From: Ectocarpus siliculosus
Taxonomy: Eukaryota; Sar; Phaeophyceae; Ectocarpales; Ectocarpaceae
Assembly (NCBI GenBank): GCA_000310025.1
Contig: FN649756.1
Span: 313,535-377,534, forward strand
Direction: 5' to 3'
Length of the DNA stretch: 64,000 nt
Part shown: piece by piece, positions 157 to 60,073 of the stretch
How the letters are laid out: each line of letters opens with the position of its first letter
Numbering within the stretch: the stretch's first letter is position 1
Program-made: the position numbers and the translations under genes
Notes under the pieces: model-generated
Databases searched by the model: none
What the model was told of the DNA's origin: nothing
What the model saw: the letters and a program-made list of their open reading frames with translations, nothing else

Positions 157-3100
157 ATGAGAAACCCTTCACTTGCTGCTGCTACTGTTGCGCTGGGACT
201 CACCACGTTTTTCGCTAAGCGTAGTAGCCGATTGGTCAAGGCGCTCGTGCCTGCTGCGTGCCGCCATCATCATGTTGATCGTTCAGCCGCACGCTCGAGG
301 AGTAGCCTTGGTGCATCCAAAAGTGCGGGGGGCGTAGCGGAGCGCATCCATCAAATCGCGGGGAGAGAGTTTGACATCGGCAAGCCTTCTGTCCTGGCCA
401 AGGTTCGCGCAATACTTTACGGCAGCTGCTGCAGTGTAAATAAAATGTACAGCAGTAGTTGCCTACGGTGAACCGGCGAAACGCATGTAGACTCTATCTT
501 TGTGCGGTACAGCAGTACGCGTTTCGCTGGCTGGTCGTGTGTGACATACACCGAGTTGCCGCTTAGCAGAGGAGAGGTTTTGGCCTCACCAACTCCCCGT
601 TCGAAACCCGAAGTCCTGCTAGTGGTGTGTCTGTTCCGTAACTTCGTCGGCAAGTGTGTGTATCTGCGGTGTAACCGCTAGACGAGTCTCGCCGCTACCG
701 TTCCGTCCCGTAACTGCCTGTAAATAGTTTTTTTTTTTTTTTGAAGCCGAATCAAACCATGAGACTGCAAGTAGTCAGCGCTGTTGACCAGCGCTGTTGA
801 CTTCCCAACAGCGCTGATTAGTCTAATGTTTTGATTTCGTTTACTATAGAAGGCATACACCCCCTGTGTAACCATGTGCTCCCGTATGCGTATCTCCAGG
901 TGCTGTACGACGAAATGAGCGTCTTCAACCCTCAAGCCGGCAGCAAGGCAGCGCTCACGGCCGCCGGTCGCCCCAAGCCGAGGTCGGTGTCCGTGAAGAC
1001 GCTGTCGGCTGTGCTCGAGGCTGAGAGAGACCCGGCCAAGCGCGAGCTGATCGAGCTGGTGCTTCGATGGTTGGATGCCAAGGCGGTGGCTAAACGAGGA
1101 GGATTCGTCGCTGCCGGTGAGTACTGCTGTACTGGTAGTGATTAGTCAAGGGCGTGTCAACGTGTCGACCAAGGCCACCGTCACGTTGCTCTGCATGAGG
1201 TAAGGTCCCGGGCTAGCTACAATAGGGTCGTTTCTGATTTAGTTGGGTTCTGTTTTACTGCTGTTTGAAGGGTAGGTGGGCGCGCTCAACGGCGTACTGC
1301 TGCATGCTGCATAGTATAGCACCGCGGAAAAATAACGTTTTCGTTAGCAATGTGTTCGGCAGGGCTTTGTTGTTGCGTTTTTGCATACTCCCGAGTAGTT
1401 GGCTAAATATTATTAACTTCTACTCCCGACCTCCTCTTAACTCATGCTCTTCCAAGGCAGCATACTTAAATCCCGCCGTTGTGACTGGCGCTGGAGATTA
1501 ACATGAAAAATGGTGAATGGTGTGCCTCCAAGGTTCGTACCCCAAGTAGCGCACGACACAGCTCCCTCCAAGTATTACGGTGCTGTGCTAGCTGTTGTTC
1601 AATCGCCTGAACAAGGCGCGGCGTGCACAGATGGCCACCTCAGTGAAAATACCGCTCGGCACTATCACCAGCCTTCAGTAAGTCATGATCGAAACAGACA
1701 ACTTAATGATACATCATGTCTAGCTACATCGATCGAACATTGGCTGCCGTTGCTTGCTGGACCCTACCATTCCAGGCGAGAAGGTGGTGGACATACCAAG
1801 CTGGTCGAGCCGGCTCATTCCAGATGACGACGAACTACCGGCGGACCCGTCCGCGTCCCCTGTGGTGCTAGTTGACGGGCATTACATCACATACCGCTCT
1901 TTTCACGGTATGCCGCACCTGTCAGCGGCTGATGGGACACCGGTAGGGGCGCTGGTTGGGTTCTGCAACACCATGAACAAGTTGGTGAGCGTTGCGTCTG
2001 CACGCTGCGCACTCCAGGCCGCGAGCGTGCCGTTCGGTAGACGACGATGTCGGCGCGATCGTAGTTGTGGCCGACGCTATTTGCCGTGGTCGTAGTTGGT
2101 TTACAGTTACATGTTCCCGCTGTTTTGTTCCTGGGCCTTCCGATCCATCCCCAGGATTTTTCTCTCATGCCATCGTGTCCTTGGTATCATACTACTAATA
2201 TCGTGGTCCAGAGGGGTCTGGTCTGCTAGAGTCAGACGTGATTGGGACTGAATAAGCTACAGTAGGTTTGTCACAGGTTTGCGTTGCCAACTGTTTAAGT
2301 TTTTCTCTCCAGCTAACGGCGACATGGCCTTGTCCCCCCGGACCGGGGACATAGGCCTTCAAGAACGTCGACGAAGACATAGGACGGTAGACGACAAAGA
2401 CGACAAGTTCAAATGTGATTGCGGCTTTGAATGCGAAGACCGTGTTCATGTAGTCGCGGAATGTCCGTGGTACGAAGAGGAGAGGGAAGTGTACATGACT
2501 GAGCTGGGAAAAATACAAGGGACGTACAGGGAGATGTTTGAGGCATGGAATAGAGAGGAGAGGACGGTAGCTGTACTGGGGAGTAGGAAGTGGTTTGAAA
2601 AGGCGGGAAGGGATATCGGTAGGATAGAAAGACTAGGGAAGACATTTTTGAGCCACCTTTGGCAAAGTAAGAAGGAACGATTGGCCATCGGTGATCGGTC
2701 CTGTGGGAACAATGCTCCGTCCTTTGGGGGACGGGTGGTCAATGGTTTAACCGCTAAGGCATGCAAAACATAAGGGTACCCCCCCCCCCCCCCCCTGCCC
2801 CAGGTGGTGCAGCCTTGGGCTGAAGGCGTTGAGCGGCGGCAGAAGGTAGTGGTGGTCTTCGACACGGGTGACGACAACTTCAGACATGACCTTTCCCCGT
2901 CGTACAAGAAGCACCGGACAGAAACCCCAGAAGCTCTAAGGTAATCGGAGGAGTTCGGCACCTCTCATGGCATAGCTGCACAACTGAATCGCTTTTCTTT
3001 TCGGTTCTGCTAGTATTTTACCCTTGCAGAGAGTGTAACAATCTGTTTTTGGGGGGGGGGGGGGAGGGCGTTTCACATGCGCTGTTCGATGATCGTGCTT

Positions 3101-5718
3101 CCGACCCCCGACCCTTGTAATACCAATGCTTCCTCTGGCGGTTCGAAAAGCGCAGGCCACAGTTCGCATTGGTCCGAAAAGCTTGCGAGGCGTACGGGTT
3201 GGAGACCATCGAAGGGCCCGGCTACGAAGGCGATGACGTCATTGCCTCCTTGGCGTTGGAGGTAAGGTGAAACGTGTACATACATACATGGGTTCGACGC
3301 TCGCTCTACCGGAGCAAAGTGTTTGCGAGGGCGTGCCGTTTGTGGTTGTTGTGTTTTGCTTTTGCTTGACTTGGACAAGGACAAGGACATGTGTGCCGAC
3401 CCTGGGATAGTGCATGTTATCCCCACGCCAGTTTTGACCGGCGATCGTATTCTGCGCCAACGCCTTTCGATCAAAATGCGTTTTGGCCGTTCCGCTTGCA
3501 ACATTTCAGAAGGAGCTACGTGCAGAACGGATCGGGACAGCGCCCGATGATGGTGTCATCTCATCTCGTCTCATGCCTTTGCTTTGCTTCGCTTTACTCC
3601 GGGTTGGCAGGCTGTGATAGGAGGCGCGACGAACGTAACGATTGTTAGTGCAGACAAGGACCTGGCGCAGCTCGTGACTAGAAGGGTAAACATGCTCAAC
3701 GTCTACACTGGGGAGAGACTGGGCCCTGAGGAGGTGAGCGCCAAAGCGGACAACACCACTTCGCGCATCGCACGTGTTTGGACGCATGTATGTGCTGGGT
3801 CCTCAGTAGTGCCGGTACGCAGCGGCAATTTTGCCGGTACTTCTGCTGGAGGCATCCGGCACTACTGTACCCCAGAGCACGGAGCGGGCCTGATTTTTCT
3901 GTCTGTCTCGGCGATTTAACCGGCCCAGCTAAGAGGGGCCCCTGATGTATGCCTAGGATGTGTTGAACTTCCAATTGTACGCCTAGGATGATGTGTGTGT
4001 CCACCACTGCAACAGTGTTTTCGACGTACGTGCGAGTTTTCGCTCTTTGAGAATCGCCATTGGTTGAGTTGTGTGTTGTAGCTGATGCGGTCGTTTGCTG
4101 CCGGAAATCGTGCCTTTTGTGCTGGTTCATTATTGCGGAGGCGTGGTTGTATCCAATGCCGCGAGACGGAATGGCGACGTGCGCATGTGTACCCCAAGCG
4201 ACGGAGAACACTCGATCTTCGCAATGCAATACAGCTTCGTCAACACTAGTTTTTTTTTTTTGACGGCAACAAGCAGGTGCTTGCGAAGTTTCTCGCTCCT
4301 CCGGGACGGTTAGCGGACCTGCTTGCGATAGCCGGCGACAAGTCGGACGGCATCGTGGGGGCTGAGGGGTACGGTCCCGTTAAGGCAGCCAAGGTGCGGA
4401 GACACTATAGAGGGTCAAGTGGTGTTGCACTGCGGTGGGTGGCGTCGGTTACACTTTCATGCCAAGCATACACGGAATGTCGTTTTCACGGCGGAGGGGA
4501 TGCGTGGCAGAGAGAGGCGATACAGGAACCTCCACGGGTAGAGAGTGAGACGCCAGCTCCTACGTGATGAAAGAATTGCGTGGGGTCGGAGCACTTCGGC
4601 ATGCAGGAGATTCAAGTGTCTTTGATCCTTTGTTTTCAGATGGGGCATGCAGGTATCACCTGTGCTTCGATCTCTAAGACTGCTCCTTTGTAGGTTAGTG
4701 TGGGAAAAAGGCATGATTCATGAAAATCCGATGGCGAGTTCACCCCCGCCGGCTTAGTTCTAGTAAGGGGAGCAAGGATAGAATCGCGCGAAGCTAGACT
4801 GGGGGCGTTTGGTATTTTTTTCTCTTTTTGTTTGGCTTGACCTCGCGTATCGAGTGGGATGTCCCTGTGTATTGATCCCTTTTGGTGGTCTCTTTTGTCT
4901 GGCATGTCACCTGCTGCAAACGCTCACTATTTTTGTACTTTGTGCTGGGTAAATTCTGATGACAACCGCGGCCACCACCACCACTCAACAACAACGGCTT
5001 CTGAAGGTAATGGCGTGGGAGAGACGCAATGCATCAAAGAGCTCTGCCGATCATTTTTTGGCATACTTTCGTATTGTGACAGGTGCTGGCGAAACACGAA
5101 ACACTGGAAGCAGCGGTGGACGAGATTTGCTCCACGATATCGAAAAAAATTGAGGACCCGGTGAGGCGGCGGTGCAACCCCCTGGCTACTACTTCAGTAG
5201 GCTGTAGACGATACCCTGTCACTCTTCCATTGTACTCCGGAGTATGCATAGAAGTGTAGTTGGGTACGGTTAGGGTCAAGGGCGGAAATTCGCTACTCTG
5301 TGTTGAGTCTTATCGGAAATACACAAGCGTGGGGGGGGGAGTGTTCCAACCACGTGCCTCATCATCAACAAGTATTCAATGCATCCCATAACACAGCATG
5401 TTTCACTGGTGCTTGTCGGAGTCTTGTTCAAGCCCCAAGAACTGGGAGTAAACTTGGGGCTACATTTTTTGCCAAACACGCTGCCGTTGACAGGAACTCG
5501 TCGCCAAGACGAGGGAGCAGGTGTTGCTCGCCCGAAGGCTCGTCGAGCTCTGCACAACGGTACCCCTCGATCGAAGAACAGGCCTCAAGAGCCTCGCCTC
5601 TGTGCCGACTTTCCATCTGGAAGGGGAAGGAGCGGCGGAACGGTTGCTGGCGTTCATGCGGAGGTTCGAGATGGACGAGCTCTCCTTGCGGACATCCCGT
5701 CTGCTGGGCGTGAACTAG
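157..5718 (+). CDS. 5'-3' exonuclease (PolA N-domain / OEX type) preceded by a PolA thumb-like segment
   Basis: Nine exons, phase-consistent throughout: 157-402, 900-1116, 1776-1984, 2804-2940, 3156-3261, 3611-3733, 4277-4393, 5083-5160, 5494-5718, giving 485 residues. The 5'-3' exonuclease domain runs from about residue 185 to the end. Visible are VLVDGHYITYRSF (metal-binding Asp about 188), a VVVFDTG...NFRHDL segment, YEGDDVIA (Asp about 296-297), VSADKDL (about 320-322) and the helix-three-turn-helix metal loop GDKSDGIVG (about 366-374). The family removes RNA primers or flaps from DNA. Residues about 58-150 (RIHQIAGREFDIGKPSVLAK, then VLYDEM) resemble the thumb of bacterial DNA polymerase I, which normally lies C-terminal to the exonuclease. 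The first ~50 residues lack acidic residues apart from one Asp and are rich in Ala, Ser and Arg, so organelle targeting is likely. The start is the first ATG of the open frame; an upstream exon before the window cannot be excluded. The first intron donor is GTTCGC. Confidence 0.9.
2279..2795 (+). mobile_element. 5'-truncated LINE 3' end with poly-C tail, in an intron of the exonuclease gene
   Basis: An open frame at 2279-2773 encodes a C-terminal LINE-type segment. It has a Cys-His knuckle (KCDCGFECEDRVHVVAECPWYE) followed by a charged helical tail, like the end of many non-LTR reverse transcriptase proteins. No reverse transcriptase core is present, so the copy is strongly 5' truncated. It ends in a 17-C run (2779-2795) only eight bases before the acceptor of the exon at 2804. 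Its last ~85 bases resemble the 3' ends of the repeats at 39853-40386 and 57189-57708. The exact 5' limit is not determined. Confidence 0.72.
3804..3877. repeat. Small foldback element with 12-base terminal inverted repeats
   Basis: CAGTAGTGCCGG at 3804-3815 is exactly inverted as CCGGCACTACTG at 3866-3877, enclosing about 50 bases. It sits in an intron of the exonuclease gene. The TAGTGCCGG end is shared with the longer repeats at 12324-12456 and 52957-53142, so it may be a minimal member of the same family. Confidence 0.6.
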
Positions 5719-9541: not shown

Positions 9542-12500
9542 ATGAAGCCGTGGAAGGAGAATGGAACTGCTATCAGCAGTGAAGAGGTCAACTTTCTCGT
9601 CTATCGCTATCTTCAGGAGTCTGGTGAGGATATCATATTATACATACCAATTTTTGTCCTCCTCTGTCTGGACTTGTACGAGCTCAGCAGCCGATGCCTT
9701 GTACCGTGTCTCTATCTTCACACCAACACTGGGTGATCCCCTGAAAACAGTGCCCAGCCAGTATGGTCGCTTCTTGAAGCCCTCGGAGCCATCATTAGTT
9801 TCGTTGCGTGGATCAGCTTGTGAGTTGTTGGTCGACCCTCCAGCTGTATGATGTAGAAATTTCACGCATGGGGGTTGACCCCCCCCCCCCCCCCCCCCCC
9901 AACGGAACGGTTTTTTCCGGGGGGGTTTCCCCCCTTTGGCTTTTCGTTTGGTTTTTTAAAACAAAAAAACAAAGTTAAGGGCCCCCAAAAAAAAGGGAAG
10001 GGGGGGGTATTTGCGGGTTTCAATTTTGGGTGGGTTTCGCTAAAATGGTTGGTCTTTTTAAAAAAAAAACCCAAATCGGGAGAAAAAATTGTTTGGGGGG
10101 AAAAAAAATTGGCCCGGGTATATTTACCCCCCCGGGGTTGGTGGGTAACGGTGTTACTTTTGTGCCCTATAAGCCTAACCAAATTTTTAGTAACGGGGGG
10201 GGGCCCTATCTGGACTTACAAGTTATTTTGAAAAAAAAAAATTGAAAATGGGGGGTGGTAAAAAAAAAACTGGGGGGAATCAAACCCNNNNNNNNNNNNN
10301 NNNNNNNNNNNNNNNNNNNNNNNNNNNNNNNNNNNNNNNNNNNNNNNNNNNNNNNNNNNNNNNNNNNNNNNNNNNNNNNNNNNNNNNTTTTTTTTTTTCC
10401 CCCCACCCCTGGGGGATCCCCAAAAAACTGTCCCCAGCCAGTTGGGTCGTTTCTGAAACCCTTGGGACCCACCTTTATTTTCGTGCCGGGGCTCAGCTTG
10501 AGAGTTGTTGGTCGCCCCCCCAGGTGTATGAGGTAAAATTTTCCCCCAGGGGGGTGCCCCCCCCCCCCCCCCCCCCGCCGACCGTACCGCTATTTCCCGG
10601 CAGGCTTCGCCCACTCTGCCTTCACGTTCGCTTATGAGAGCCAGATAACCAAGTCTAGCGTCGCCGAAGCACAGGTGAGGGGCGCGTCATTCGCGGCTTC
10701 GATCTCTGCATGTGTTCGTCTAAATCGCTTGATCTTTCAAAGATACAACCACAATCAGCGAGAGAGACTGCTCTGGGGGCATACGAATTGCGCCCGTGTA
10801 TATTACCCCCTCGTGGTTCGTTGTGTACGTGTGTACGTATGTAGCCATATAGCCATACCGACATGTTGAGTACCGGGCGTGCGCCTACTCTGCACTACCA
10901 AGTCATTTGCAAAAGAAACACTGCAAACTGGTGTGTGCTACACAAGATCCTGCGGCGATCGAAGCCGGTGTTGGCGCGTATGGCACTATTACTGCTAATA
11001 GGCGATGTACAACAAATACAATGCCATGTTCGAACCCTTTCGCTCGGTACATGTGTATGTGACTTGCATCACAAGACTTCCGCCTGGCTAAGATACCCTC
11101 AAATTGCCGTTGCAATGGAACGACATTAAGTACACGAGCCCGTTGAGCAGCGGTGGGGTGTTTCTCGGTGGAAACTGGCAGTGTGCAGTACTGCTCCACC
11201 ACGTGTTTTGTTTGGGGGGGGGTTGCTGAACTACGCGATTCGTGAGAGTGAGAGGAAGAGGGTAGGTACATGAAGGTGGACCCGGCTGTTACATGGCACC
11301 ATGTTGAGGCGTCGCGGCCTTGTTTCGGTAGTCATGGCAGCCACTTGAACTGTTGTGAATCAATTCGTCTGTGACATTGTGCCCTCGTTGCTATGAATAG
11401 CCGCGTGTGTTTCTTTCAACAGCGTCGACCGCGCTAACGCAAGAGATGGTGTCAGCCAGCCTCGCGGCGGGATTCAAAAACGAAGAACGCCATCCGCTTG
11501 TGTATGTCGTGCGCGTGCCGCTTCTCTCGCTGGCCCAGGTGGCGCCGGGCATGCTGATCACCTTCTTGCAGAAAGGTCTTGCCTACGTCGGAATCGAGGA
11601 GCACCTGAATGAGGTAATGCACGCTAATACAGGAGTGGAACCGCACCTGGAAACGATACAACGAAGATGCATTACAAAACGGTGTGCCAAGCACCGGGCA
11701 CAGCAGTTACAATTGAAATCGAGCTACTTTTCAATTGACGAAGGAAAATGTTCGTAGTAGTTTCCAAAGAAAAGCTATCTATGTGCAGAACTGCTGTTGT
11801 AAGTGAAGAGCATTGCTCCTTCTCAGATCCAGCCCTGGGGCATGACCCATACTTGGTGCCAACACGCTTCTGCCCAGCATGGCGTCAGCTGGCAATATCC
11901 CATTGGCGGTAAACCGCAGAAAATACTTGATCGACAGAAGCACCCCCTTTAGGTGTGCCGATTTTATCTGAACGCATCATGTGCTCCAACCCTACCAAGG
12001 CGAATCAGCCCTCAATGTCGCCGTCTCAGCAGTTTGCTGGTGTGGGTGACGTGTCCATGCGGCTGCAGATCGCGCGATAGCGCTTGATTTCGTAGAGATA
12101 ACTAGTGTGTCGAGTCTGGTTTACGTGCGGCTCATGGAACGCGACTACGACTTAGTTCCACAAGATGCTGCTGAGGAAACAGGTTCGGGAGCCTCCTTCG
12201 GATGTTAGCAACGCATCCAAGCAATCCGGCTCTTGGTTATTGTCGCAAGCACACGTGTCTGTGTTGCACAAATTCCACACGGCTGGCCCCACTTGTTGGT
12301 GCAGTGTGGGGGTGGGCTGTCTCGTGCCGGTATGTACCCAGAGAGCTAACCGGCAGTATCCACCGGACACGGCACTACTCAAAGTACAGACTCGGCGATT
12401 CAGTCTGTGCCAGCCGAATAAACCGGCACTATACCCGGCACCGGCACATTCAACAAGCGCCAAATAGCCCCCCCACTGCTTTATATCGACCTTTTTATAT

Positions 12501-15500
12501 CCAGGACGGGTCTGAGTCTCGGTGCGACGTGGACTTCTCGCTGCTGAAGGCGCACGTATGCGGTGTTCGGCGCAACGCCGTGGAAGGCGGCGGCAGTGGC
12601 AGCGGCAAGAAAAAGAGGGGGGCGGACGACGACAACGATAACGACAATAACCGGCGGGGTGCCGGTGCTGGTGAGTGTAGGGAGGAGAGATTCTCCATAG
12701 CGGTTCCTTTGATTGATTTTTCGGAGTGTGTGTACCCTTTTTAGGGGGTAGTTGGGGTGTGTGCGTCAGTTGGACCAGCACGAATTTTGGAAGTTAGAAG
12801 GCATTGGTTGAGCAGAAATCAGAAACGTTTTGTTATTACTGAGACAACAACGACAACAACAGTGTTTGAAGGTACTGAACAGACACCAGAACGTTTTGTT
12901 GACAACAATAGCATGCATCGTTTCCGATCGCGGGCGAGGCTGGTTTGGGCGGGGGGGGCTTCCCATAACGCTGACCCGACGGTGAAAAATTCCGATGGCA
13001 TCACCAGCAGCGAGTTGCCCTGGCCTCCGTGTTACGTGGCGTCCGTCACTATTATGGCCAAGTTGTGCAGTTATGGAGCATTTCTGTGTGGCACCCCTGT
13101 TTGGTTAGGCGGCGATTCAAAACTTTGTATCACACGTGACTGGCGCGCGTTGCTGGGAGGAAGGGAACCAACCCACCCCCGTGGTTGTTATCCACGTTTT
13201 TGGTGGCACCAACACGACACTTTCGCTCCTCTCCTCAACAATGGCGTGTTGGCCAAATCACTGAACCAATACCACTTTTTCTGCCGTCTATGCTATTGTT
13301 GGTGGCGACGTTGACACCACATTTGCTTGCCTTCTCAACAATGTCCATGTTGACCTATAGCGAACACTCCCTGAACCAACACCACTTTTCCTACCACCTA
13401 TGCTATGCATTGGTGGCGACCTGCACACCACTTTTGCTCTCCTCAAGAGACCGAACAAAAAAATCCCTGAATGTACCATATTTCTACCATCTAGGTGGCG
13501 AGGGTTTCCATAGGGGAGGACGAGAAGGTGCCACCGGCGGCGGCGGCGGAGGGAGCGCCGCCGGCGACCGGTCCCACAACGACGACCACACGGGGAGGGA
13601 GACGAACGGGGGGGCCGACGCCAGCGGCAGGGTGGGGGGGCACGGGCACAAAGGCGCAGCCGCCGGAGCCGCCGCGGGCGGCGCCAACATGGCGAACACC
13701 GGGGAAGCGATGGAGGTGGACACGGGGGAAGAGCGAGGCTACGGGGAGGAGAACGGGGGCGCGGGGGCGGCGGCAGCGGGAGGGGTTGCGGCGGGAGCGG
13801 TTGCTGCGAATGGCGAGGGCGCCATGGGTATCAGCATTGGAGACGGGTTGAAAGGGGGCCCCGCGGGGTGCGACGAGATTCCGGACGGGGACGTGGCGGT
13901 TCTCAACAACCACCACTCCGAGGTGAGTCTAAGTGTTGCTCCGAGGTGTAGTGTTGGAAATCTGGGGGGGGTGTGCCGTATTACATCAAAAAAGGGCGAA
14001 AGATGCAGCTTGCTGGGCTAAGCATTGTACCTTCGCGGGACTCATGAATCGCCACTTGACTCATTTGTCGCCATTACTTTTGAGGTGGAGGTGTTGCCTG
14101 GTCATGCACATCGCTCAGTTGGGACTGCTGTGTTTGACATTGCGTAATCTTTGGCCGTTGGTGGGTTGTTTTTGGCCTCCATTTGGTGTTGCGATTAAAG
14201 TTGTAGAGGTGCACAGCACAGCAGGCGCACCATCAAACCATCCTCCTCTTCGAGTGCAAGGCACAACCATAGTCACGCTGAACCCGAGCTTTTCACAATT
14301 GGAAACAGTTTCTGCCTCCCCCCCGCGTGATTATCGATGGTCCATGGCTGTTGTTGACCTCTAAAAGACTTTGACGGTGATACATAAAACACATATGCGC
14401 TTGCAAAGGACGTGCCACCACGCAACAACCTGAGAGACAAGTCGCAAAATTAGGTCCAAGAAGAGATGTATTAAGAGCTTGGCCATAAGAACAGGTAGTC
14501 AGGTAAGTACCCTACACTTAAAATTCTGTAGTCGGTTGTTGGCGTACCCCACGGAGGGAATGAGAAAAAGGAAGTTTTTTTCTGAAGTAGTGACACGATC
14601 TATGTACAGCAGTGCTGTACCCGGAAATTGGGGTCAGTCCAAGATCCAGGGGGACCTGTCGTTCTCCCGAATAGACCTTTCGGACCAGAACGTGTGGCAC
14701 TTTTTTGGAGGGTCTTTGGTGTTGCCACCGAGCGTTGTCCTAGCCCTTTAATTCGTGCGGAACTCATTGATTGCGCCTCAGTTGTTGACGTATATATGCA
14801 TTCACGCTCAGTCAGAAGAGCGATGCAAGCAACAGCAACAATTCGCGTCCGTATTTGTTTGTTCTGATTTGTGCCTCGTGTGTTTCATCGCGCACGTGAG
14901 GAAGAGACTGGGTCGAACAACACCACACTATTTAAACAACAAGTGTCGGTGGTGCTTGGGGCAGGCAAGGATAGTTACAGTTGATACCTGGTCGTACCCT
15001 GCGAACTACAGCAGTATACCACTTCGGTGTTAGTGAAAGATAGCGGCGTAAACGTTCACCCTGCAAACCGCGGAGACTTGCTGATCGGCCTTGTCTCTAG
15101 CTTGGCTCATCGCACCAGTGTGAAAATTCAAGAACAGGTCTTATGCATATGCGGAGTGCACACACCGCTCCTTGCTGCCAATAGACGCGAGGAAGAGATG
15201 TGTACAGACGGATAACACTCCACAGAATGTCAACTGTTGTATCCAGCCTCATAATGTATGTACTTGTGTTGCACCGTCCGTGTGTTTTGACAGGTGTTCA
15301 TGTGTGCATGGAATCCCAAGTACGACCTCCTGGCGTCGGGGTGAGTCTAGCTGCCACACGTCTCGCTATGTCTTGCAATATCCTAGCTAGCTATTAATTG
15401 CTGTAACTAGATTCTAGCAATCGATTGATCTATCTACGTATAAAAGGCCGACGTTCGCCCTGCCTGTGGTGTGTGCAGCGTTTGTTTTTTGCCAAGTCTT

Positions 15501-31280: not shown

Positions 31281-32001
31281 AGCTCAAGCCTGTTAAACCG
31301 TGGGTGCATAGGGTAGTGAGGGAAAAAGCGCAAGCTCATGCGGTGAAGGTGTGATGCCGATCACGCACAAACTGAAAGCTCCATGGCTCCCGTATCGTTG
31401 AAGTATAGCAGCTACAGTGTAGTTGGATATCTCTCGTGGGGGTTGCTAGCTGTCTGTCTGTTTGTCCAAGGTACGCATCGTTGAATCAGCATGATCTCTT
31501 CGCTCATCATGTATACAGTAGTCTAGAGGTACCTGGGCAACAAATCATCAGCACGAGGCCAGCTAAAGCCCTCTACCTACCAACACCACGCACGTTCTCC
31601 TTCAATGAGTACCAGCGGGCATCGTTGTTTGGGTACAATGGCCGTCATGGCGTGTGTCGAGCTCCTGACTCGGGGACGGACTCCTTTCGTCAGATCGTCG
31701 ACTCACCACTCGGTTGTGTCTGAAGTAAACCGCGCGAGCACGTTCAGATCCACCTCTACCGTTCTTGCGCCCTATACTCAAGCCCAGTAGTCACCTATAC
31801 AGCAGTGGACACACTGAGGAGAGAGAGACTGGCGTGAGGAGCCTAGGCCCGTGCGTTAGCCCCGTCGCGCCCGCGGGTGAGGTGCGCGCGTGTATGTCGA
31901 TCGTACCCCCCCAGGAACGCCTCGGGAACCAACAAATATATTGTCCGCTTTCATCTGCTGCTGTTCACTGCTGCTGCTGTTTACTACCCAACGTCCGAGC
32001 G
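31281..32001. other. Intergenic between divergent cupin and FN3 genes
   Basis: About 720 bases that should contain both promoters. No recognisable element found. Confidence 0.5.
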
Positions 32002-36477: not shown

Positions 36478-36642
36478 GCGACCATGTCTTTACTGCCCCC
36501 CATTCACATAGCACCCCAAATACAGATAGCCCCCAAAAGGTACGCCGCGGTAGACAAGATGGCCAGGGCCCATGCGCTCATGAAGAACATCATCTCGTGC
36601 ACCGTCGGAACTTCGCAGCTTCGGAGAAAGCACCGTCTGTGA
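36478..36642 (+). CDS. Candidate terminal exon of unknown protein
   Basis: After a strong pyrimidine-rich acceptor (CCTTTTGCCAG) a phase-0 frame runs 54 codons to TGA. It includes PIHIAPQIQIAPKRYAAVDK and MARAHALMKNIISCTVGTSQ. Third positions are GC-rich in the second half, as in confirmed exons nearby. No family is recognised. It could be the last exon of the FN3 gene, but the phase-1 end of the last known FN3 exon then requires an intervening exon. Confidence 0.35.
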   Translation, partial: ATMSLLPPIHIAPQIQIAPKRYAAVDKMARAHALMKNIISCTVGTSQLRRKHRL

Positions 36643-42026: not shown

Positions 42027-45000
42027 GGAAGCCGGTTGGCGCGGTGCTGCACTGCGTCCCACCGTATAAAGAACCAGCAAAGAAGAGACTGGCGCTTTGA
42101 TCGGTGGTGGTGCCGAACCTCGAGGGTGCATTTCGCAATTTCGGCGGAAGCGTACAATACCGTGTTGCTTGGTGGATCGCGGAAGGTCGCCATGGCGATG
42201 ACAGTGAATATAATAATATAATAGTCTACAGCAGTAGTCTAGACACCATATGTGTAGTGTCGAACGAAGAGCGGGGATTGGGGGGATACTATCTCCTTCG
42301 TAAGTGCTTCGGCTTTGTGTATTTCCATACAACAGCGAGAACGGATTGCGTGTGTGGGGGGGTGACTTCTCGTACTTGTACTTAGGCAGTTGGTAGGCCG
42401 GCCCGTTTCTTGTAGTGTGATATAGATAGCATCCGAAGTGAGCTATTAGAAATTGACAAAGTGATTGGCGAATACAGGACAGCACCAGTCTATGTGTGCT
42501 GCTATCCTGCACATACATGTAGTTGCAAGATCAAACAAATGACAACGATGATGACGACGACATCAGACGGTATTTTGTAGGTCGAGATGCGGTTGCTGGC
42601 AGGAGCAGAGCCGCTTGAAGTTTTAGCGACGGGACGGCCGCATCACGGTGCGACTTTTTGGCGCGCTTGTGACGTCATGCGCATACATGACCAGCAAAGA
42701 ATATAATGGATGGGGGAGGTGCTCTGTACCTACGTCGGAATCCCGCTCCGTGGGCCCTCTCGGAACGCGTTGAGATCGATTGTGCAAGAGACAGCGACCC
42801 GGACCTTAGGAGACCAAGACAGAAACACGAACGCATTCCCACCGTGCCTGTCAAACGACAAACTTACACCAGGTACGTATGTATCCAGCAAGTGGTGTAA
42901 GCTCGGCGTGTACTGTCGTGGTACCTGGTAAATAAAGCAGAGAGACCGTTGATGCGGTAAACATCACGAGTATGTATGCGAAACGGACGCACGCCGTTCG
43001 GCGCATTGACCGACGGGTGGGCGTGCTTGGCCCATGCGTTTTGCATTACGTAACATACCGTGATCGGGTGTGTGCAGAATCGGATTGGAGGGGTTAGATC
43101 GGATGGGGGCCGAATAACTGACGGGGGAGGGGAGAGAGGTGCGGAGAGAGGCAACTCACCGAGACAGACAAAAATTTCTTGTTTCAGCCGTATGCACACG
43201 ATGAATACAACTGAAGAGACGCTTGTCGTGGGTCATGGGTCTCTCCCGCAACAAGTCTGACGTGGACAACGCACCGGGAAGGCTCCCTGCAAACAAATAT
43301 TCAAGAGAGGAGAGTTAGGCGCAACCTGGTTCTTCAATATAGGAGTACTACAGCCAACAAGCTCTACGGTGGTGTAACCCTACGCACCCAAGGAAACCAA
43401 ACAGAAATTTCCTACGGTACTATACGTACTCCGTAGCCCACGCAACTGCTGTGTATCCGACCGCTCTCCGCCGACATCCATCATCCATTGCACTATGAAC
43501 AAGGGCTACGGTTACAATAGGTCTATGAGATCATCCTAAATATCATGTGCAGACAAGCGTCCCCACACTAGGGATAAAATTTATACTTTCCGAAAATACA
43601 AGAGCATCGTTCCTGGGACCAGTCCTGGATCCCAAAGTCTCAGATTTAGCAAATGAAGAAGAAAGCTCCAGTGTATCCAGAGGTTGCCCCCCCATTCTCT
43701 GTAGAGAATAAGACTTAACACACGTCCCCTTCGACTATGGTGTTATCTCGAACGGGTAGTCTTTTCTGTATTTGTTTGTATGCTTTCAAAAAAGACTGTC
43801 AGTTAAGCAGCGTTCCTGGGACCCGTCCTGGATGCGAACAGCTTCATATTTGCAATAAATGTACGTACTTGAGAGCGATGACTGACTGTAACTGCGCTGT
43901 TTTTACGGGATAAACGCTTACTACGTGGCCCCGGTATCTCGACGAAGGCAGATGCCAAGGACCTAAATTTCTATATTGTCTCTGTCACAGGCGGTCCAAA
44001 GGCGGCGCTTGGGTCCTATCGTCGAGGGCGCCGACTACATGTATTTGTGTTTGCTATTGATGCTAAACCTTGATCGAGAGCACGATAATATGTTCTTATC
44101 CCGGCCTGATGCCTCACACCTCACACCCAAGCAAGGCTTCAGGAAGGTCCTCATGCAACTCTCGGCATGCATAGACAGTAGCCGTGCGGCAAGAGCGTCT
44201 ATGTGTGGTGTGCGTGTTTAGCCTGATAATCCATCTATCTATAGGGTGGACCGCGATTCCTTTGATACCCTCTCTCGTTTGTTGTTGCTCTGTTGTGGTG
44301 CTCAATTTGCTTGCAGCTCGAAAGTTCCTACTAAAGACGAAGATATTGCCGACATCGTTGCAGTAGTCGTCGTTGCTGTTGATCTTGGTTTTCGTATGGG
44401 TACTAGACTATCGATTTTTACACAATGATTTTGCTGGTAGACAACGAAGGCAGGTAGTGTGGAGCGCATGCAGGTCGTCGCCAAAAAAATTAAGTTTGTT
44501 AATTGCGATTAGGGTTGATTGCAGGAGGATGAGACGTGCGACCTGTCAGCGAATGAAAGATGCAGATGGCGGAACCATTTCTGCATCTGCCATATAGACT
44601 CTGTTGGCAAGGCACATGAGACAGCGCACCTTCGCTTCGGGGCGGTGTGGTGTGTAGTCTACCATACGAAGAAATAAGGAGACGCATCCGGATTCTTACA
44701 AAGGACAAAATGTCTTTGACTGACCAAGCGCGCAAGGCTCGGATTAGAACACGCTATGACGGAGCAAGGAGTGCGATCTCCCGCTGATTCATGCAAATCC
44801 GAAACGCGTTGCCCCCACTGGAGCTCAGACCGCCTCGTCGCCCCTAAGAAACTTAATGATAACAACACGTGAAAAAAGAACACACACGAAAAAATCACTA
44901 CGGTACTTTTTCCTACGTCAAACGTGCCACTATCGCAGCACAGGAGACTCGCTTGGCATGGGTGACGGCAGACGTTCTGGAGCACCGGCTCCGCTCACTT

Positions 45001-48500: not shown

Positions 48501-51500
48501 ACAAGCTATTTGTGAAAGAGCCGCAGCTTTTCCAGCTTGCTGAGAGCTCCCGGGGCCTTGGGGATAGGCCCTGCAGCAGGGAGGGATCTTGTAGAACATT
48601 ATCTCATCAACACTCTTACAACGTGTGATGGCCTACTCACGTATGCAGCACGGCACTATTGTACAAAGCGGGGAAGCGCGGTGAAGGCCACAAGATCATC
48701 GGTCCCGCCTAGGTGTTGGCAGGACAAAGTCTAGGAGGGGAAAGACGCTCTAGAGCAACGAAGACCCCCTTCTTTGGCACATTTCTAATCACATGTCTGG
48801 TTGCAGCGGAAAGAATGACGCACGCAGCTTGCCAAGAGCTCCTACGCCCTTAGGGATGTGTCCCACAACGGTAGCATGAGACATGGTAATTCGTGTCCCT
48901 GAAGGCAGGTTTCTCAAACAATAAAAGACGGTTCATATTGCACGTGCGCTAGAAGCCACCTGACCCACTTCTCGAAACCCGACAGGACGATACGCTAGCT
49001 GGTTGTTCCACACGCCAATCACCTAGAGCTTGGTGAGGGGTCTCATTTGTTTGCGATACTGCCTATACAGGCAGCAGAGGCGCCCGTCCTATCTATTTGA
49101 GCAGCGCGGGATCAAAGCAACGGGCAGCATCTGGTACGACGACTTCGCTTGCGCCGCATGCGTCTAGCTAGTGTCGCGCCCACGCGTGGGCGAATCTCAT
49201 CGTTGAAATCGGTGTCTTTGTTGATTGGTTGGCCGCTGCAGGTGCTATCCCCGCCAACTTGGGGGACCTTGTGGCCCTTCAGACACTATCGCTTGGAGGG
49301 AATCAGCTGAGTGGTAAGTGGGTAGCCGAACATTCGACTCAATCGAACCACCGTGTCCCGCCCAAGTTGATGACTATTCCACTATTGTGTTTTATGGAGC
49401 GCTTGAGACAGCGAAAACGTGAGCCCGAGCCTGGTAGTGAGGAAGACTAGTGGTTCTAGTGGTCATCGTGCTTCCCAACAAAAGCTAATGTCCGGGGTTC
49501 GAATCTCCCCTTGAGCGTAAATTTATTTGCGCCCGATCTATGGGAAGAAAAAGTATGAGGAAATAGGCTTATAATAGCAAAACATGCCGGTGAACCTCTT
49601 GTACCGATAGTGATTTCCGGGCAAGACAGCGCTGATCACAGGGATGGCAGCCCTGGGGGGACGTGTTCGTGGCTGCAAAGCCAGACCGGACACAGGCATT
49701 TACTTTTGTTGAGAAGCATGATGACCACTAGACCACTAGTCAACGCTGACTAGTGGTCTAGTGGTCATCATGCTTCTCAACAGGTATCCTGAGGTTGGTA
49801 GATGAATGCAAGGTCGGGGATCGAGGGCCACTTTGGCAACAGCGTGGGGTTGAGTTGAACCCTATTTTTCGTTGGCATAGGCACTAGGGTTTCGCAGCAG
49901 CCGAGACCGGAGTGAAGAAAGACCGCACCGTCTGGGCATGGGCACAAGCGAGGAGGGAGTATGTTTCACCAAGTATGTGTGTGAAAACATGGGACCATCC
50001 TCGGCAGACGTTGAGAGATTGTACCCTTTATTTATGAAGTTATCTCCACATGTGGACATATTTCGTTTTGTTTTGCACAGGTTCCATCCCCCAGAAGTTG
50101 GGAGGCCTCACCAGGCTGTCGACGCTTGTCCTTTCCAACAACCAGCTTACTGGTAAGTGGGGTGTCATGACAATATGTTCTTCTAGAATACCAGTGCGAG
50201 CCTTGCCCTAGACCGCGCAGGGCATGTAGTTGATAGCGTCAAAATTTCTCTCGTTTTTTGCCCTTTTCTCTTTGGTGTGTTGGTTGAGAGCACCCCAGCA
50301 TCTCCAGCTTGCCGAGAGCTTCCAGTGCTACGAGAAAGGGCTTGGAGCAAAAACTGCCCGTGAAATTGGGTGGCAAATAGAATATCGGGTCGTACCGTTC
50401 TAAGAGTATTCACTGACACGTAGGCACAGTAGGTCCATCACGTTCGTACATGTTCTAGAAGCGTGGGTGGGGCACACGCTATCTGTAAAATATTGAATGT
50501 GGGAAGATACAGACTTTGGGTTCCCAGCGTGTGGTCCGCCTTCACGTTGGAGGAGCACGTGTTCTAGAAGCCGGCGCGATGAGCTGTTTATTTGCGAGGC
50601 GAAAACGAATCGCACTACAGTAGTTCGCACAAACCACGAAGCTTTGAAAATCTTGGAATCACTTGAAATCTCTTCCGCCGAGTTATACACAATCGTGAAA
50701 CCTCCTCTCACGGTTTTGTCAGGACTTTGGGAGGTCGAACGCAAATCACGACAGGGACGCACCACGCCGCTTTCCGCAAAAGGTTGGTGTGAGAGTGGCA
50801 GATGTGAAAGTTTGGAGGTTTCTGTGGTGTGGGCAAGGCTCTACTAGTGCAGCTTTACCCTTGGAGCCTGGGTGATGCAGAGTGGTTCGTGCAAAGTTGT
50901 TTTGCTGTTCATATTTCTTCACTCGAGAAGCGTTTCCGCCCAGAACACAAGCGGGAAATGTTCAGAAATCATTTTGACCCCAAAAGTAGGCGCAGCAAAC
51001 AAGATATCAAGCGACCGAAGGGCCTATCACTCCGGCTCGAGAAAGTACGAATTGATGAGCCCAAGATTTCCAACCACGAAAATATAGCGAGTCCCCCATG
51101 GCTCTACCGAATGTACTCTTGCTAGGTTGGAGTTCTTGCTAGCCAGGTCTGTATTTGGATTGTCTTCAAAACATATAGCTGTGTACATGTTGGATTGCCG
51201 TGGCAACACACTTTGAGATTGCGTAAACACACGGTACGTTTCTCCGAGCACCGCACGTTTGTTTTGTTCCCCTACCGTACCTCAGAACCTGTTCCATCTG
51301 CGTTGGACTCGCTCCTTCGGGTTGTCGAGGGATGCTCCCAAGTACGATGGGGCAATAACCCGTGGCGGTACCCGCCCGCCGAAGTGATGGGCCAAAGCAT
51401 ATCTGTGCATGTACGGCAGTATTTCAACGCGGTCCTCGCTGGATCCGTGAGTACCGTGCGGCGGCCGCTAAAGGTTGTGGTGGTCGGCAAGGAGTCGGTT

Positions 51501-54500
51501 GGCAAAACGAGGTATGTGCACCTGAACATCCGTGTACTACACCCCACCATCCGTCATCTGCAGATTTAGGGCGCAAGTCAGGACGTATGAGACGAATCTT
51601 CGCACGCTCTCTCCGTTGTGAGGAGGGAAAGGGATTTGCCGCGGAAGATGTCGGCCTCGAGTCGTTAGTGTTCGACATGAGGCGCTTGATCATCGGTGAC
51701 GGCGGCCAACTCAAACCCGCTTCGTTGCTGGTGTCAGTGGGAAGTGGTGTTGTCGTCTTGCGGATTGTCTTTGTCGTGATGAAACAATGTTTTGTGGTCT
51801 CACGTCGTTTTGATGGCCAGCTATAGACGTTGTGTTCTGCCTAACGTCTTCGTGTTTTATTGCCTTTTGCCTTTTTTTCAGTTTGCGGCAGAGCATTGTG
51901 GCAGGCAAGGCCAGGCCAACACGTAATCACGGGGGGGAGAGCACCGTGCACATCGATGTCGAGGACCATGAGCTTGACGGTAGGCCAATTCGGATCTTCG
52001 ACTGCGCTGGGCAGGTAACACGCTCGCCATTGCTGCAGTAGTAGCGCAATTCGTGGCTGGTGAAACCCGAAATCCGCTTGCTATGACGCAGAAGTTGAAC
52101 TATTTAATTATTTCAGGCGCTTATCCTGCTCTTACTGAGGGAGCCGGATTATCCCGAGACCCTCCGCTTTCGTGCAGTAGCCTCGCAGACCGCGTGATCC
52201 ACACAACGTACCCCAGGAACGCCCAGAATTGCGGTTTGCACTCAGTTGCGGCTTCTTGTCGAAACCATCTCTATCGCCCCTCCGTACAGGTGGCGTACAC
52301 AGGCCTGCTTCAACTCTTCCTCACCCCGCAGGTCATCCATCTGTTGGTGGTGGACATGCCGAGTGTCGTCGGCAACATCGAAAACGGCACCTCAAACCCC
52401 TTAGAAGATCTCGGAGCACTCAGATGGGTTCGTTCTCTCAGTTTCCGTGTACCCGGGGCAGCTGTCATTCTGGTGGGTACAAAGTGCGACCGCGTGAAGG
52501 ACACGGACGGAGAAACCACGGAAGCGAGACTTTCGAGGGCAGCAGGAATGGTGGAGGACAATATTCGCAGCTGGATACACAAGTGGACTACGCAACGGTT
52601 GCATAACCACCACGCCCAAAGTATCGCCTTCGAGAACGGCGTTAGCCTCGTGAACTGCGGGTTACCGTGCGACGAGTTGGACGGAGGTTGGCCGTGTGAC
52701 GTCAGCCAGCCGAGCCTTCTGCATCGTATCACTTTCAAAGACGGCAAGGCGCGAGGAGTCGACGCAGACCTTCCTCTGAGCTGGGGGTGTGCTCTCAGCC
52801 TTCTGGACGAGACAGCCCGCCGTGTCCGGTACGTGTTCCTGAGCGGCCCCTGCTTTGAGTGTTGACGCAGCCCATGATTGAGATGCTTCGGTATGGGTGA
52901 ACGCCTGGCTTGTACCTCTGCACGTACCTGTGTACAGCAGTAGAGGTCCCTGTTTAGTGCCGGTATGTGCCCAGAAAATTCCCCGCACTATACCGGACCG
53001 GACATGGAGTTCCCTGTGTGCCCGCCGAAAAACACCGGCACTACGCCGGACAGGCACTGTTGAAAGTATAGAACAACTTGGTATTTCAGTGTGTGCGAGC
53101 CGAAAAACACCGGCGCTATACCGGGCACCGGCGCTATCCAACTGCACTTGCTTTCTGAGCACACCGCATCCCCTTTCACCCGTCGCCGTCTCTTCGCGAT
53201 CGATGGCTTTCAACAGAGGGCAACCGGGATTCCGAGGTGTCGAGAGGACTGAGCTTGACGGGCTATGGCACGACAAGGTTGACGAGCTGAAGCGGGGTGG
53301 GCATGAGATGGAGGCTACCGAGCACGCTCTCGACGGGGCAATATCAATTATGTAAGCGGAGTTGTGCCCAGGTTCTACTACTGCGCTTGGCTAGCCCATA
53401 GAATAGTGCTGACTGCCTCCCGTCACTTCGGGCTTTAGGGCGAAGCCCGCTATGCTTCGCCGTAGAACTTCCACGAATTTCACCTTCATCACGTCCTCTT
53501 GGTCAGCTCCTCACAACGTTTTCACTTCTGTGAGGAGAACACGTCTTGGTTAAAGAATAATCTCGTTCTCCTTGTGTAGATAGACTAGCTCACGTCGTCC
53601 GTGCGCCGCTGTTGTTTCTCTTTGTCGCAACCGCCCACCTTGTCAGGGCGTACGAAGGGAGCCTTGTAGTGTACGGTTCGTTTGTGATCGTCGATGTGCA
53701 GTGGCTCGCCACCGTCTTGAAACCACTATGCAGCCATAAGGACATGTCAATGGGCGAGGTAAACCTCGGTGGTATCACGGTGAGGCCAGGTCCAAGAGTG
53801 GAACGGTTGGTGAAAGACGGTATTCTGGAGCCCAAGCTCGCCGAAGAACTGTGGCCGGACACGTGGGAACATCTCCTCAGGGCGCTAAGCAGTGCGGGGC
53901 TGACGTTCCCGCGCCCGAACGATAAGGAGGGCGGGTTGGTAGTGCTCCTGCGATTGGACAAGGATCGGCCGGATGATGTGGGCGACATTCTGGACGACTT
54001 CCGCGCATCGCACGATGGCCAAATTGTGGCATCGTGCACGTTGTTGCAGGGCGCGCCGCCCGGGTTCATCGAACGGCTGCTTTCGACGTGCTGCCGTCTC
54101 GGCTCGTGCAACCACTTTTGGCGGTACGGCGTACTCATCCAATCTCGATCCTTTTCAGTGATACTTGAGTATGCCGAGGACGACGATACCTTGGTTGGAA
54201 AATTCTCGGTGGACGCGTTTGGTGACTCCCGCACCGCCGGACCTTGGCTCGCCCTGTCGGGGTGCCTGTCCGTGTTGTCGAAGATGCTCTCCGAGTTCCC
54301 GGGGATGGACGTTGAGGCGACGCTGGAGTGTCCGTATCACAGCGGGGGTTCCAGGCTGATTCCAATCGACCTCTACCAGGTATAAACGCATGACGATCCT
54401 ACACAGTAGATCTTTGCCCTTGCTTCGCCACTCCCCGCTGGCCGTGGCGCATATACCGTTGATCTCACCCCATTGCCCGTCCACCTTCCCATATACACCG

Positions 54501-56940: not shown

Positions 56941-57172
56941 CTAAATGCCATTAACTGGGAACCCGTGAGGGGGCGGCATGGGGGAGACTAATCTATTCTC
57001 CGGATCAAAGACAGAAACGGTAGGAACAGAAGAAAACTGCACACGTCTACGAAGGCTGCTACCTTGCACTCGAGTTCGTTTTTGAGTGCTTTCACCGTTA
57101 TCCTCCGTGCTTTCAACTTCATCGTTCCCGTTATCGTTTTCACAGCAACTCTTCGACATTTCTTCTCTGGCC
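56941..57172 (-). CDS. Candidate terminal exon of unknown protein (minus strand)
   Basis: A minus-strand frame runs from an acceptor CGACGCAG (57173-57180) to TAG at 56943-56941. It encodes an acidic stretch (CENDNGNDEVESTEDNGEST) and then a basic segment, KRTRVQGSSLRRRVQFSSVP, and TVSVFDPENRLVSP. RVQF fits the RVxF docking motif for protein phosphatase 1, but that motif is short and often occurs by chance. No upstream exon was located and third positions are AT-rich, so coding status is uncertain. Confidence 0.3.
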
Positions 57173-57188
57173 CTGCGTCGTTTGTTGT

Positions 57189-57708
57189 GGGGGGGTGTAC
57201 TCATGTACTCATAGTCGTGTATGCCGTAGTCGTCAGACCATTGACCTCGCATCCCTACAAAGCCGGGACGGAGCACGCCGGTTTCTCACCGGACCAGGCT
57301 CTCACATCACCAAGCGCGAAGCGCCGTGGGGTATTCGGCGTTTCGCATGAAGGGTGCACTGCATCCTGCTAAGGGTGTTCGGCATCTTGGCTTACTTCCT
57401 TGCGTACGGATGGCAGCTGCGTATGACTTCATCTATTTTCTGGTGCTTTCACTTCCGGAGACAGTTATAAGCGCTGTGTAACTGCCTCGAGGGTGCTTGA
57501 CCAATTTAACACAACGTGCGATTGTCCCCTTTGCGCGGAGTGAGGGTTCTCGACCCCGAACAACATAATCTACTCGACCACCATTCATGGTTCCCGCAAA
57601 AAAAAAAAAGGTAAAAGAAGTGGTAACCTGGTTGCCGAGCTCACGAAGTGATCGGCTTGTTTTACAACATCGCTGCCAAGCGACAAAAACCCAACTCCGA
57701 TGGCAAAT
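57189..57708 (-). mobile_element. SINE-like element with poly-C tail, copy B
   Basis: Inverted copy of the 39853-40386 repeat. On the minus strand it begins near CCATCGGAGTTGGG and ends ATGAGTACAC followed by a short C run (G run 57189-57195 on the plus strand). An internal A/T-rich spot (57598-57609) corresponds to the T-rich stretches at 39955-39980 in copy A. It has no coding capacity. Confidence 0.8.
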
Positions 57709-60073
57709 CCCCCCGGGGGGGGGGGGCGTCGTTTGTGGTGGGGAAGGTCATCTGGCTCGAAACTGTTGCTCTCTTCCACGCCATGATTCACTCCTCGACT
57801 GCTGTTTTTGTCTATGTCTTTGTCCTCCTCCCGTTCCCTCTTCTACTCCTACTGCTTCATCATGGCTGCCAAACGAATTCCCCTCATTGCCATCCTGGTT
57901 GTTTCTATCTGCACTACTACCAAGATCCCAACCTAGCTATTGGTCGTGGTGGAAACTGATCGAGACGTAGACTAGTCCCATGACGTTTGAAAACATCACG
58001 AGTTCGTACCCCATTTTTCGTGGTAAGACGTGTAGTCTGTACTGCTGTACACGTCAGGGTGTGTAGATCTAGAGCTGTTGTATACTCTTCAGAGTGTATT
58101 TGATTCGTACAACTACAACCATCCAGGGCTTTTTTGCGTTCCCTCATCAGCAAAGGGATTCCCCGTGGTTTGTCGACACACAGGTTACGTTGTTATTGGT
58201 CCAACTTCAACGGCCCGTCTGTCGTTTGCGACACCCTAAATACGGTTCGCATTGGTTCCAACGTATAGTCCGCGAGTCTGGCTGTCTGTACAGAAAGACT
58301 GACTGTTGAGAACATGCAAGGGCTGGTCAGGTGACATGCAGGATGGCCTTGCGTGTACCAGAAAATTCCAACATAGACTAGACAAACAAACTCGTTTCGT
58401 TGGTTTACGTTATGGACAATTTATTTATCTGTGTCGCGGGGTGGTTGGGACGCGTCGTACTATAGTCTACTACTGTGTACCGTCATCCTCGAGATCTGCT
58501 TTGTGTACCGCGTGCACTACTTTGTATTGTGCGATGCGCCCATGCTTTGTGCTTTTCATACAATTCCGCGAGCTAGAGTATTTCACGCAACTAATCTGTC
58601 GGAGGCGGATATACCACCTGTTCTTGATTCTCTGTCGCACTCGTCCCATTTATGCATAGAGACACTACTGGTTCTCTTCGCGAGTCGCGACATCTCTTTC
58701 AGTGCGCGTGCGTGCATGATGAACGACAAAACCCCAATCAATGAATGAGAGAGCCATCATCAGCGAGTACGCGGTACATCGTCGGAAGCCTGATGAACCT
58801 GCGCCGCCTTCCCACAAGCCATTTCAGGATTCTGTGCAATAGAGCTGCTGTGTATGATGTGCAGCTTTGCCGCACACTACACACCAGCTGTCTCGCAGTA
58901 GTGCCTGCTGTATCGCAGGATCGCACGCGGTTGGTGTCCTCACAGTCCCGCGGGGGACCCGCGGGGTGGGAGCAGAGAACCATGGGTTCCCGCAGGGAAA
59001 TACGACCTGCGTGTCCGTAGATCCGAGTCGTCGGACCGTCGGACCAGACCCGAGCCGGAGCAGAGCATCAGCAGACCGACAGAACAGACGAGCGTTAAGG
59101 ATGGCTGCCTATACCCACCCATCGACATGGCCACACGTGATATTGACCTTGGGCGGCTTTCCGTTCCCCCACCTTGAAGACTGCAGGTGATCTGGTTCGC
59201 GCCCCACGTTGCTTCGATGATCGGTATGCAGACAGAATTGGGTCTCCGTGTACTTGCTTGTGTTCAACCCAACACCGCTTGCACAAGCAAGAGATGCCTT
59301 GCTTAAACAGCACGCCTGCCGACCTTCCCGGCACCGCCGACATGAAACGCACCCGGATAAACCCACCCCGCAGCAATCAAGCACAGTGGTGATGCCGTAA
59401 GTCCTCGTACGTACGAGTTGTCGTCATGCTTTTCACCGACATATGCATAGTTGACTTTGGCGCAACGGCGGCTCTTCCGCTGCTGTTGCGTACTACAGCA
59501 GTATGTATGAGTACGGCACAGTATTGCAAACACGTGTGTTGTTCGTACGCTGCTGTGGCTGGTGGGTGCGCAATCGAGGCGGCTGTAGAGGAGCGCTCGA
59601 TGCCTGTTGGTGGCAAGCACCCTGGTGATTGCCGGAGTGCACCAAGACTCATCGAACTCTCTTTCAAACTTGTTGTTCGTTGCTGCCGTTGCCGTCATAC
59701 GTACAGCCATGTTCGTTCCCGCCGGTTGGCGGTGTACCCGATGCACGCTGTTTCCAACCCTTCCCTCGCTCGGCTTAGAAAAACCACTCTCGCGACAAAG
59801 CCTCCTCGTGCACCCCGATGTCAACTGCTTCGCGCTCCGCCTCACCAAACACCTTTTGCGGTGGCTGACCGACCCAAACCAGGCAAGAGATCGTGCCGGG
59901 GCCTGCAGCGACGGAAGACCCCACCTTGGTTAGGTTGCGGGGCGGCAGGACTTTCTGGCTCCAGAGGCGATTGGTCAATTCGATTTTCGGCGCAGTCTTC
60001 CACGGTATCGAGGGGATGTGGCCCAACCCTGACGAGTGAGAAACTACAGCAGTACCTGTGTCCTGGTGTCCAA
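57709..60073. other. Region with no recognised gene
   Basis: A G/C run at 57713-57727 adjoins the SINE-like element. Long open frames at 59426-60082 (+) and 59303-59848 (-) overlap each other and show no family resemblance or splice structure. Confidence 0.4.

Follow-up and report, generated by a model that had tools for sequence, protein, structure and literature searches.

The 64,000-nucleotide stretch of the Ectocarpus siliculosus genome analysed here (contig FN649756.1, positions 313,535 to 377,534 of the forward strand; in the following, the window) carries a ten-base word, TACAGCAGTA, that is real, strongly non-random and exact, with 15 copies on either strand (11 on the plus and four on the minus strand). 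In our view, this word is best read as a variant type of scar from a TA-targeting transposon; a protein-binding site is a live rival. Put more precisely, we tentatively suggest, at somewhat below an even chance, that TACAGCAGTA is the excision footprint of a Tc1/mariner-like element with CAGCAG ends, six bases of which were left behind. Among the readings offered in a preliminary description of this DNA, the excision footprint is favoured because TACAGCAGTA is one of a group of words that are TA-bounded inverted repeats.

Abundance and sharpness of the word

Exact matching on both strands confirmed the 15 copies counted in the preliminary description and 14 of the 15 positions listed there, whereas the copy placed at 42237 actually starts at 42227. 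Once runs of N, C and A are set aside, TACAGCAGTA outnumbers every other 10-mer in the window. Its rarity by chance had been put at about 0.1 occurrences, which is too low, as an order-4 Markov model predicts 0.43, but the observed number nevertheless lies far beyond chance. In 40 simulated sequences the word occurred 0.425 times on average and at most twice, and 100 dinucleotide shuffles gave, with up to one mismatch, a mean of 2.94 matches compared to 30 in the window. Since the window itself, motif copies included, served to train the Markov models, the expectation errs on the safe side. A chance origin of the copies is ruled out by the Markov expectation, the simulations and the shuffles.

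The 30 single-base variants of TACAGCAGTA together occur 15 times, compared to about eight occurrences expected from the summed Markov expectations. Four of these 15 represent the single word TACAGCAGTG, and two represent one palindromic site at 32157 that is counted on both strands, so that the many near-matches described earlier did not hold up and the scarcity of one-mismatch variants rules out a degenerate repeat. The sites are made or kept as exact copies, recently or continuously, by whatever process is responsible. The complement of TACAGCAGTA reads TACTGCTGTA; as the two differ, the word is not a perfect palindrome.

The preliminary description had named an origin of the copies as pieces of a single long known repeat as speaking against its motif, and comparison of the flanks further demonstrated that they are no such fragments. 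No conserved sequence runs on from one side of the motif, as one long repeat or the terminus of a miniature inverted-repeat transposable element (MITE) would have it, and within 40-base flanks a word of 9–10 bases is common to only four pairs of copies, the overlap between the copies at 448 and 508 aside.

TA-bounded words and the excision reading

By definition of the word, TA stands on both sides of the core in all 15 copies. In a scan for words of the form XY-x-XY, leaving aside words from microsatellites or CAG repeats and the motif in shifted frame, the outstanding words were TA-bounded, namely TA-CAGCAG-TA itself, TA-TGCA-TA (12 sites outside a microsatellite, simulated mean 1.1), TA-GAC-TA (17 sites, simulated mean 4.7) and TA-CAG-TA (21 sites, simulated mean 5.9). 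With a TATTG microsatellite at 17054-17183 masked and both strands counted, TA-NNN-TA words with complementary outer core bases occur 134 times against 47.4 expected (2.83-fold), whereas the remaining TA-NNN-TA words reach 178 against 154 (1.15-fold). Inverted words bounded by AT, CG or GC, used as controls, likewise amount to 1.18, 1.19 and 1.06 times their expectation, respectively. As CAG and GAC had suggested the idea, both were dropped as a fair check, and the other inverted TA-NNN-TA words still sum to 29 sites against 14.3; the MITE at 32537-32766 described below contributes two of the 29 with its ends. In simulation, the TA excess is strongest at core length 3 (z +7.7), followed by length 6 with one complementary pair (z +5.8; CAGCAG accounts for 15 of 54 sites) and length 4 with two pairs (z +4.7). 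It is weaker at lengths 5 (z +2.9) and 8 (z +3.3), each with two pairs, and absent at lengths 9 to 14.

TA is the target of the Mariner-Tc1 superfamily. A TA-targeting element, of the Tc1/mariner kind or working alike, would duplicate the TA when inserting, and its ends would start with CAGCAG. On excision, the six terminal bases of the element would stay between the two TAs. The six-base single-stranded CAGCAG ends from both sides could then anneal, with four of six positions paired and two A-A mismatches, and repair towards one strand would yield either CAGCAG or its complement CTGCTG, which is the same 10-mer on one strand or the other. Sister families with other ends might leave TA-CAG-TA, TA-GAC-TA, TA-CCG-TA and TA-TGCA-TA, and we infer that a three-base overhang with complementary first and third bases could self-anneal and give rise to the enriched core class. 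The fill-in product of a three-base cut, TACAGCTGTA, has no copy in the window, and hence the six bases are not CAG plus CTG.

Chains of words that share their TAs, such as TA-GTC-TA-CAGCAG-TA-GTC-TA at 42222-42241 and TA-CTG-TA-CTGCAG-TA-TGCA-TA at 32152-32172, are what re-insertion into old scars would give. Three TAs spaced five bases apart occur 32 times compared to 19.3 expected, and seven other dinucleotides lie at 0.8–1.3 times expectation (both strands).

Known systems offer several parallels. TACAGTA and TACTGTA are given in PMC4378557 as two consensus excision footprints of Sleeping Beauty. These resemble the words discussed here in carrying TA on both sides and in their inverted-repeat shape, and both are enriched in the window, but their core comprises three bases and that of TACAGCAGTA six (CAGCAG). 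The ends of the internal eliminated sequences of Paramecium have the weak consensus TAYAGYNR and are described in PMC3464196 as similar to Tc1/mariner ends. They share the TA boundary, and TACAGCAG fits this consensus; in contrast to the presumed scar, their excision is described there as precise, leaving none (PMC3464196).

The window also harbours a mariner-like MITE of about 226 bases at 32537-32766, with a TA target duplication and arms whose outer 24 bases differ by one mismatch (CCGTAAGAGTSGGAGAGATGGCAC), which shows that a TA-flanked element is resident. For Ectocarpus, 17 Mariner-Tc1 families with 11,912 mostly non-autonomous copies are reported in PMC12477816. The MITEs among them, such as TcMar-N1_Ec32 with 217 bp, resemble the one in the window in the TA target and the short, non-autonomous build, and the presumed CAGCAG source could conceivably be one of them.

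As for a source, a weak candidate element at 32140-32538 carries TATACAGCAGTGTA at both ends in inverted orientation (CAGCAGTGTA ends) and adjoins the MITE. Within this stretch, TACAGCAGTGTA, for which about 0.02 occurrences are expected, appears twice within 400 bases and inverted, and a third occurrence, TATACAGCAGTG, lies at 31796. At 14605-14619 on the plus strand, TACAGCAGTGCTGTA combines CAGCAG and TGCTG between TAs and may represent a longer, imprecise footprint. The inverted pair and the sites at 31796 and 14605 would fit element ends of the form CAGCAGTG.

Several observations weigh against an excision footprint. The arms of 32140-32538 match over only 12–14 bases, with a score of 12 compared to a best score of 13 in shuffled sequence. 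When inverted partner arms were sought by alignment for seven terminus-like sites (four TACAGCAGTG, three TACAGTAGTG) against 30 shuffles each, the score exceeded the shuffles at one of the seven sites only, by a single point (15 vs. 14). No convincing source with CAGCAG ends was found. Clear TA-flanked inverted-repeat elements within 1000 bases numbered only two, and scars would therefore far outnumber residents. One of the two, with GTG ends at 49457-49730, has no matching word excess (TA-CAC-TA, three occurrences against 5.48), and no empty site or informative paralogue was present among the aligned repeat pairs. Per dinucleotide pair, TA-flanked inverted pairs are 1.3–3.1 times commoner than AT- or GC-flanked ones, but their raw counts are 6–11 for TA, 6–10 for AT and 9–22 for GC, and several rows represent a single element in shifted register. 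Six retained bases are also not typical, as Tc1/mariner elements duplicate TA and usually leave a footprint of 2–3 bp of terminal bases according to PMC3464196. It should further be considered that the TA hypothesis was formed after the words had been seen, that the controls are not all flat (AT-bounded words reach 1.73 at length 2 and, as the largest control value, z +3.9 at length 6), and that another repeat may have its ends at three of the 21 TACAGTA sites, which read TACAGTAGTGC. For Minos, footprints of up to four retained bases are known.

Two of the structures concerned deserve separate mention. The TA-flanked inverted-repeat element with GTGGTCATC ends (49457-49730) lies in a stretch at 49445-49782, in which it is adjoined by a 76-base near-perfect palindrome of those ends. 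At 3804-3867, a 64-base inverted-repeat stretch has the ends CAGTAGTGCCGG, and TACAGTAGTGC is found again at 30360 and 36821.

Other explanations for the word

The strongest rival holds that TACAGCAGTA is the recognition site of a sequence-specific and probably dimeric protein, such as a transcription factor, an insulator or an origin protein, with two TAC half-sites four bases apart that selection keeps exact. We regard this as possible but on the doubtful side. The exact copies with few variants, the two-fold inverted symmetry and the apparently non-coding placement would all agree with it, as would the somewhat raised number of TAC-N4-GTA words with other loops (36 compared to about 22, both strands). 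TATGCATA could be a second such site, as four of the 15 copies of TACAGCAGTA lie within 350 bases of a TATGCATA site (mean 1.8 by shifting, p 0.09). Of the 30 bases that directly adjoin the motif, 25 are G or C (chi-square 9.0, 3 df), and this bias fits a longer, 12-base binding site and a target preference equally. Binding sites, however, normally tolerate variants, and TACAGCAGTA is nearly devoid of them. In addition, no consistent position relative to the few recognised genes was apparent by eye, and a protein site leaves unexplained why several other over-represented words are TA-bounded inverted repeats. A recombination site or a site for a chromatin protein, as mentioned in the preliminary description, is possible.

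The next reading, which we consider improbable, is an iterated word upheld by DNA modification, repair or biased mutation without any transposon, in the manner of HIP1. HIP1 is a sharp, dispersed and symmetric word with few one-mismatch relatives, and TACAGCAGTA shares these properties. HIP1 (GCGATCGC) of cyanobacteria, which is tied to methyltransferases in PMC4390886, is frequent as well, but it is prokaryotic and a perfect palindrome, whereas TACAGCAGTA has the non-palindromic centre AGCA. Moreover, several different TA-bounded words coexist in the window, which one would not expect of HIP-like words.

It is very unlikely, in our view, that the copies are short hairpin signals in RNA or DNA that act via the stem-loop TAC-AGCA-GTA. 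The three-base stem with its AGCA loop is present in every copy, some copies form longer stems (a perfect 7-bp stem at 37999), and fold energies compared to shuffled flanks gave a mean z of -1.0, with two of 15 copies below -3, which is a mixed result. Yet stem and loop never vary, so that no covariation of the stem, as had been proposed for a check, can be demonstrated, and the other 63 three-base stems around AGCA yielded 14 matches against about 12.6 expected and are as a group not enriched. The flanking bases had been said to extend the stem often; their pairing is mostly near the level given by base frequencies, with few longer stems. Position ±1 is complementary in five of 15 copies (about 5.3 from the base frequencies there, calculated by hand), positions 2–9 pair in one to five copies, and positions 10, 11 and 12 in seven, two and six copies, respectively. 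Both strands are used, and Rfam returned no family at gathering score anywhere in the window. Neither the structured RNA signal nor the terminal hairpin of the preliminary description is hence borne out.

Slippage of a CAG repeat between two TAs would account for CAGCAG as two triplets and for the enrichment of TACAGTA (21 sites), but TACAGCAGCAGTA, TACAGCAGCAGCAGTA, TA-GACGAC-TA and TA-CCGCCG-TA all have zero copies, so that there is no ladder of repeat numbers, and slippage, the least probable of the explanations, is rejected.

Genomic setting and significance

On the plus strand, exact copies are located at 448-457, 508-517 (60 bases past the previous copy), 23393-23402, 24943-24952 and 37652-37661, and on the minus strand at 58040-58049. 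The minus-strand copy at 1122-1131 abuts a possible 5' splice site (GTGAG|TACTGCTGTA, by eye) that would close the coding-like stretch 876-1121; the flanks of the 15 copies revealed by eye no common placement of this kind, and a splice-site element was rejected. The copies at 15007-15016 (plus) and 16402-16411 (minus) fall, judged by eye, within the presumed span of the WD40-repeat gene and likely within introns, and the one at 19690-19699 (minus) lies downstream of 18849-19106, the last WD40 piece recognised. The copies at 37999-38008 and 42227-42236, both on the plus strand, are part of the chains TA-CAGCAG-TA-GTC-TA and TA-GTC-TA-CAGCAG-TA-GTC-TA, respectively. The three remaining plus-strand copies lie at 52933-52942, within the presumed span (by eye) of an LRR-ROCO-like gene and adjoining a dispersed GTGCCGG-rich repeat, at 59494-59503, starting 52 bases away from the start of a TATGCATA site, and at 60045-60054, where the copy directly precedes an 81-base tandem repeat. 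A location mostly outside exons, as described before, agrees with this gene reading, although the exons are mapped only in part.

The copies do not cluster significantly (seven gaps below 1600 bases compared to 4.4 by chance, p 0.08). The association of TACAGCAGTA with TAGACTA at four distances reached p values of 0.018–0.047, uncorrected for five word pairs at four distances, and the copies at 37999 and 42227 contribute to it. These two, 4.2 kb apart, have 19 bases in common, CTACAGCAGTAGTCTAGAC (37998-38016 and 42226-42244), which TACAGTAGTCTAGAG at 31514 resembles with CAG in place of CAGCAG.

Almost as conspicuous as TACAGCAGTA is the perfect palindrome TATGCATA, whose 12 sites outside the microsatellite (simulated mean 1.1) lie at 5243, 8924, 15142, 19995, 20058, 25268, 29211, 30406, 32165, 36771, 58651 and 59442. 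The sites at 5243 and 19995 share the longer TCCGGAGTATGCATA. Within the microsatellite of TATTG units at 17054-17183, four further TATGCATA are part of a 21-base higher repeat.

Among the exon-sized coding pieces, which give the window a eukaryotic look, Pfam recognised a gene with a 5'-3' exonuclease domain and the WD40-repeat gene above cut-off and gave a weak kinase match. By eye, we took a ribosomal protein near 7.26-7.52 kb to be uS10 and a long gene, which spans about 45.4-54.4 kb, to be LRR-ROCO-like with similar LRR exons; for this presumed gene, Pfam returned a weak LRR match only and none for three pieces tested. LRR-ROCO genes are known from brown algae and are described in PMC11378527 as shuffling their exons.

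Two inverted copies of a dispersed repeat (39835-40380 and 57189-57729; about 560 bases, 83% identical) resemble the abundant RTEX-N1_Ec32 in size and density and may belong to it. Related blocks of repeated GTGCCGGT/ACCGGCACTA units, with 77% identity across about 110 bases, are found at 12349-12454 and 53034-53142, the latter close to the motif copy at 52933. At 9717-10958, a gap of 100 N (10288-10387) separates two stretches, the first of which is a homopolymer-rich copy of the second with 69.6% identity; rather than biology, this duplication seems to reflect read ends of low quality where the assembly is interrupted.

In viral sequence, three protein scans of contigs gave seven, four and four pattern matches with no confirmed relative, and the repeat, MITE and 19-base patterns had no match. 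Paired TACAGCAGTA in 113 viral stretches showed spacings that are multiples of three in 121 of 122 cases, as in repetitive coding sequence, and were set aside as unrelated. Seven prokaryote contigs matched the repeat pattern and had, by BLAST, at most 21 bases in common with the window, and the scans that were made found no further brown-algal DNA. Among the literature matches listed, no study of the 10-mer or its complement was evident by title, and of the papers that contain either word none mentions 'brown alga'; a search joining 'brown alga' with mariner, excision and footprint returned nothing, and among the matches listed for Ectocarpus promoter or palindrome motifs none is plainly on TACAGCAGTA.

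Extrapolating from this one window, one could cautiously propose, and with a little less than even confidence, that the nuclear genome contains an exact 10-bp site about once per 4 kb, which either a dimeric DNA-binding protein maintains or a TA-targeting transposon family with a six-base scar has left behind. If the site is bound by a protein, it would represent a regulatory or architectural element of striking exactness and density, and signals of such kind are, to our knowledge, little known in this lineage. If the words are scars, a footprint of six bases would point to an unusual cut by the transposase, and the source families of several TA-bounded words could be found together. Past activity of the elements would then be recorded in tens of thousands of scars that can be dated, and the history of DNA transposons in this genome could be counted and dated from the scars alone.

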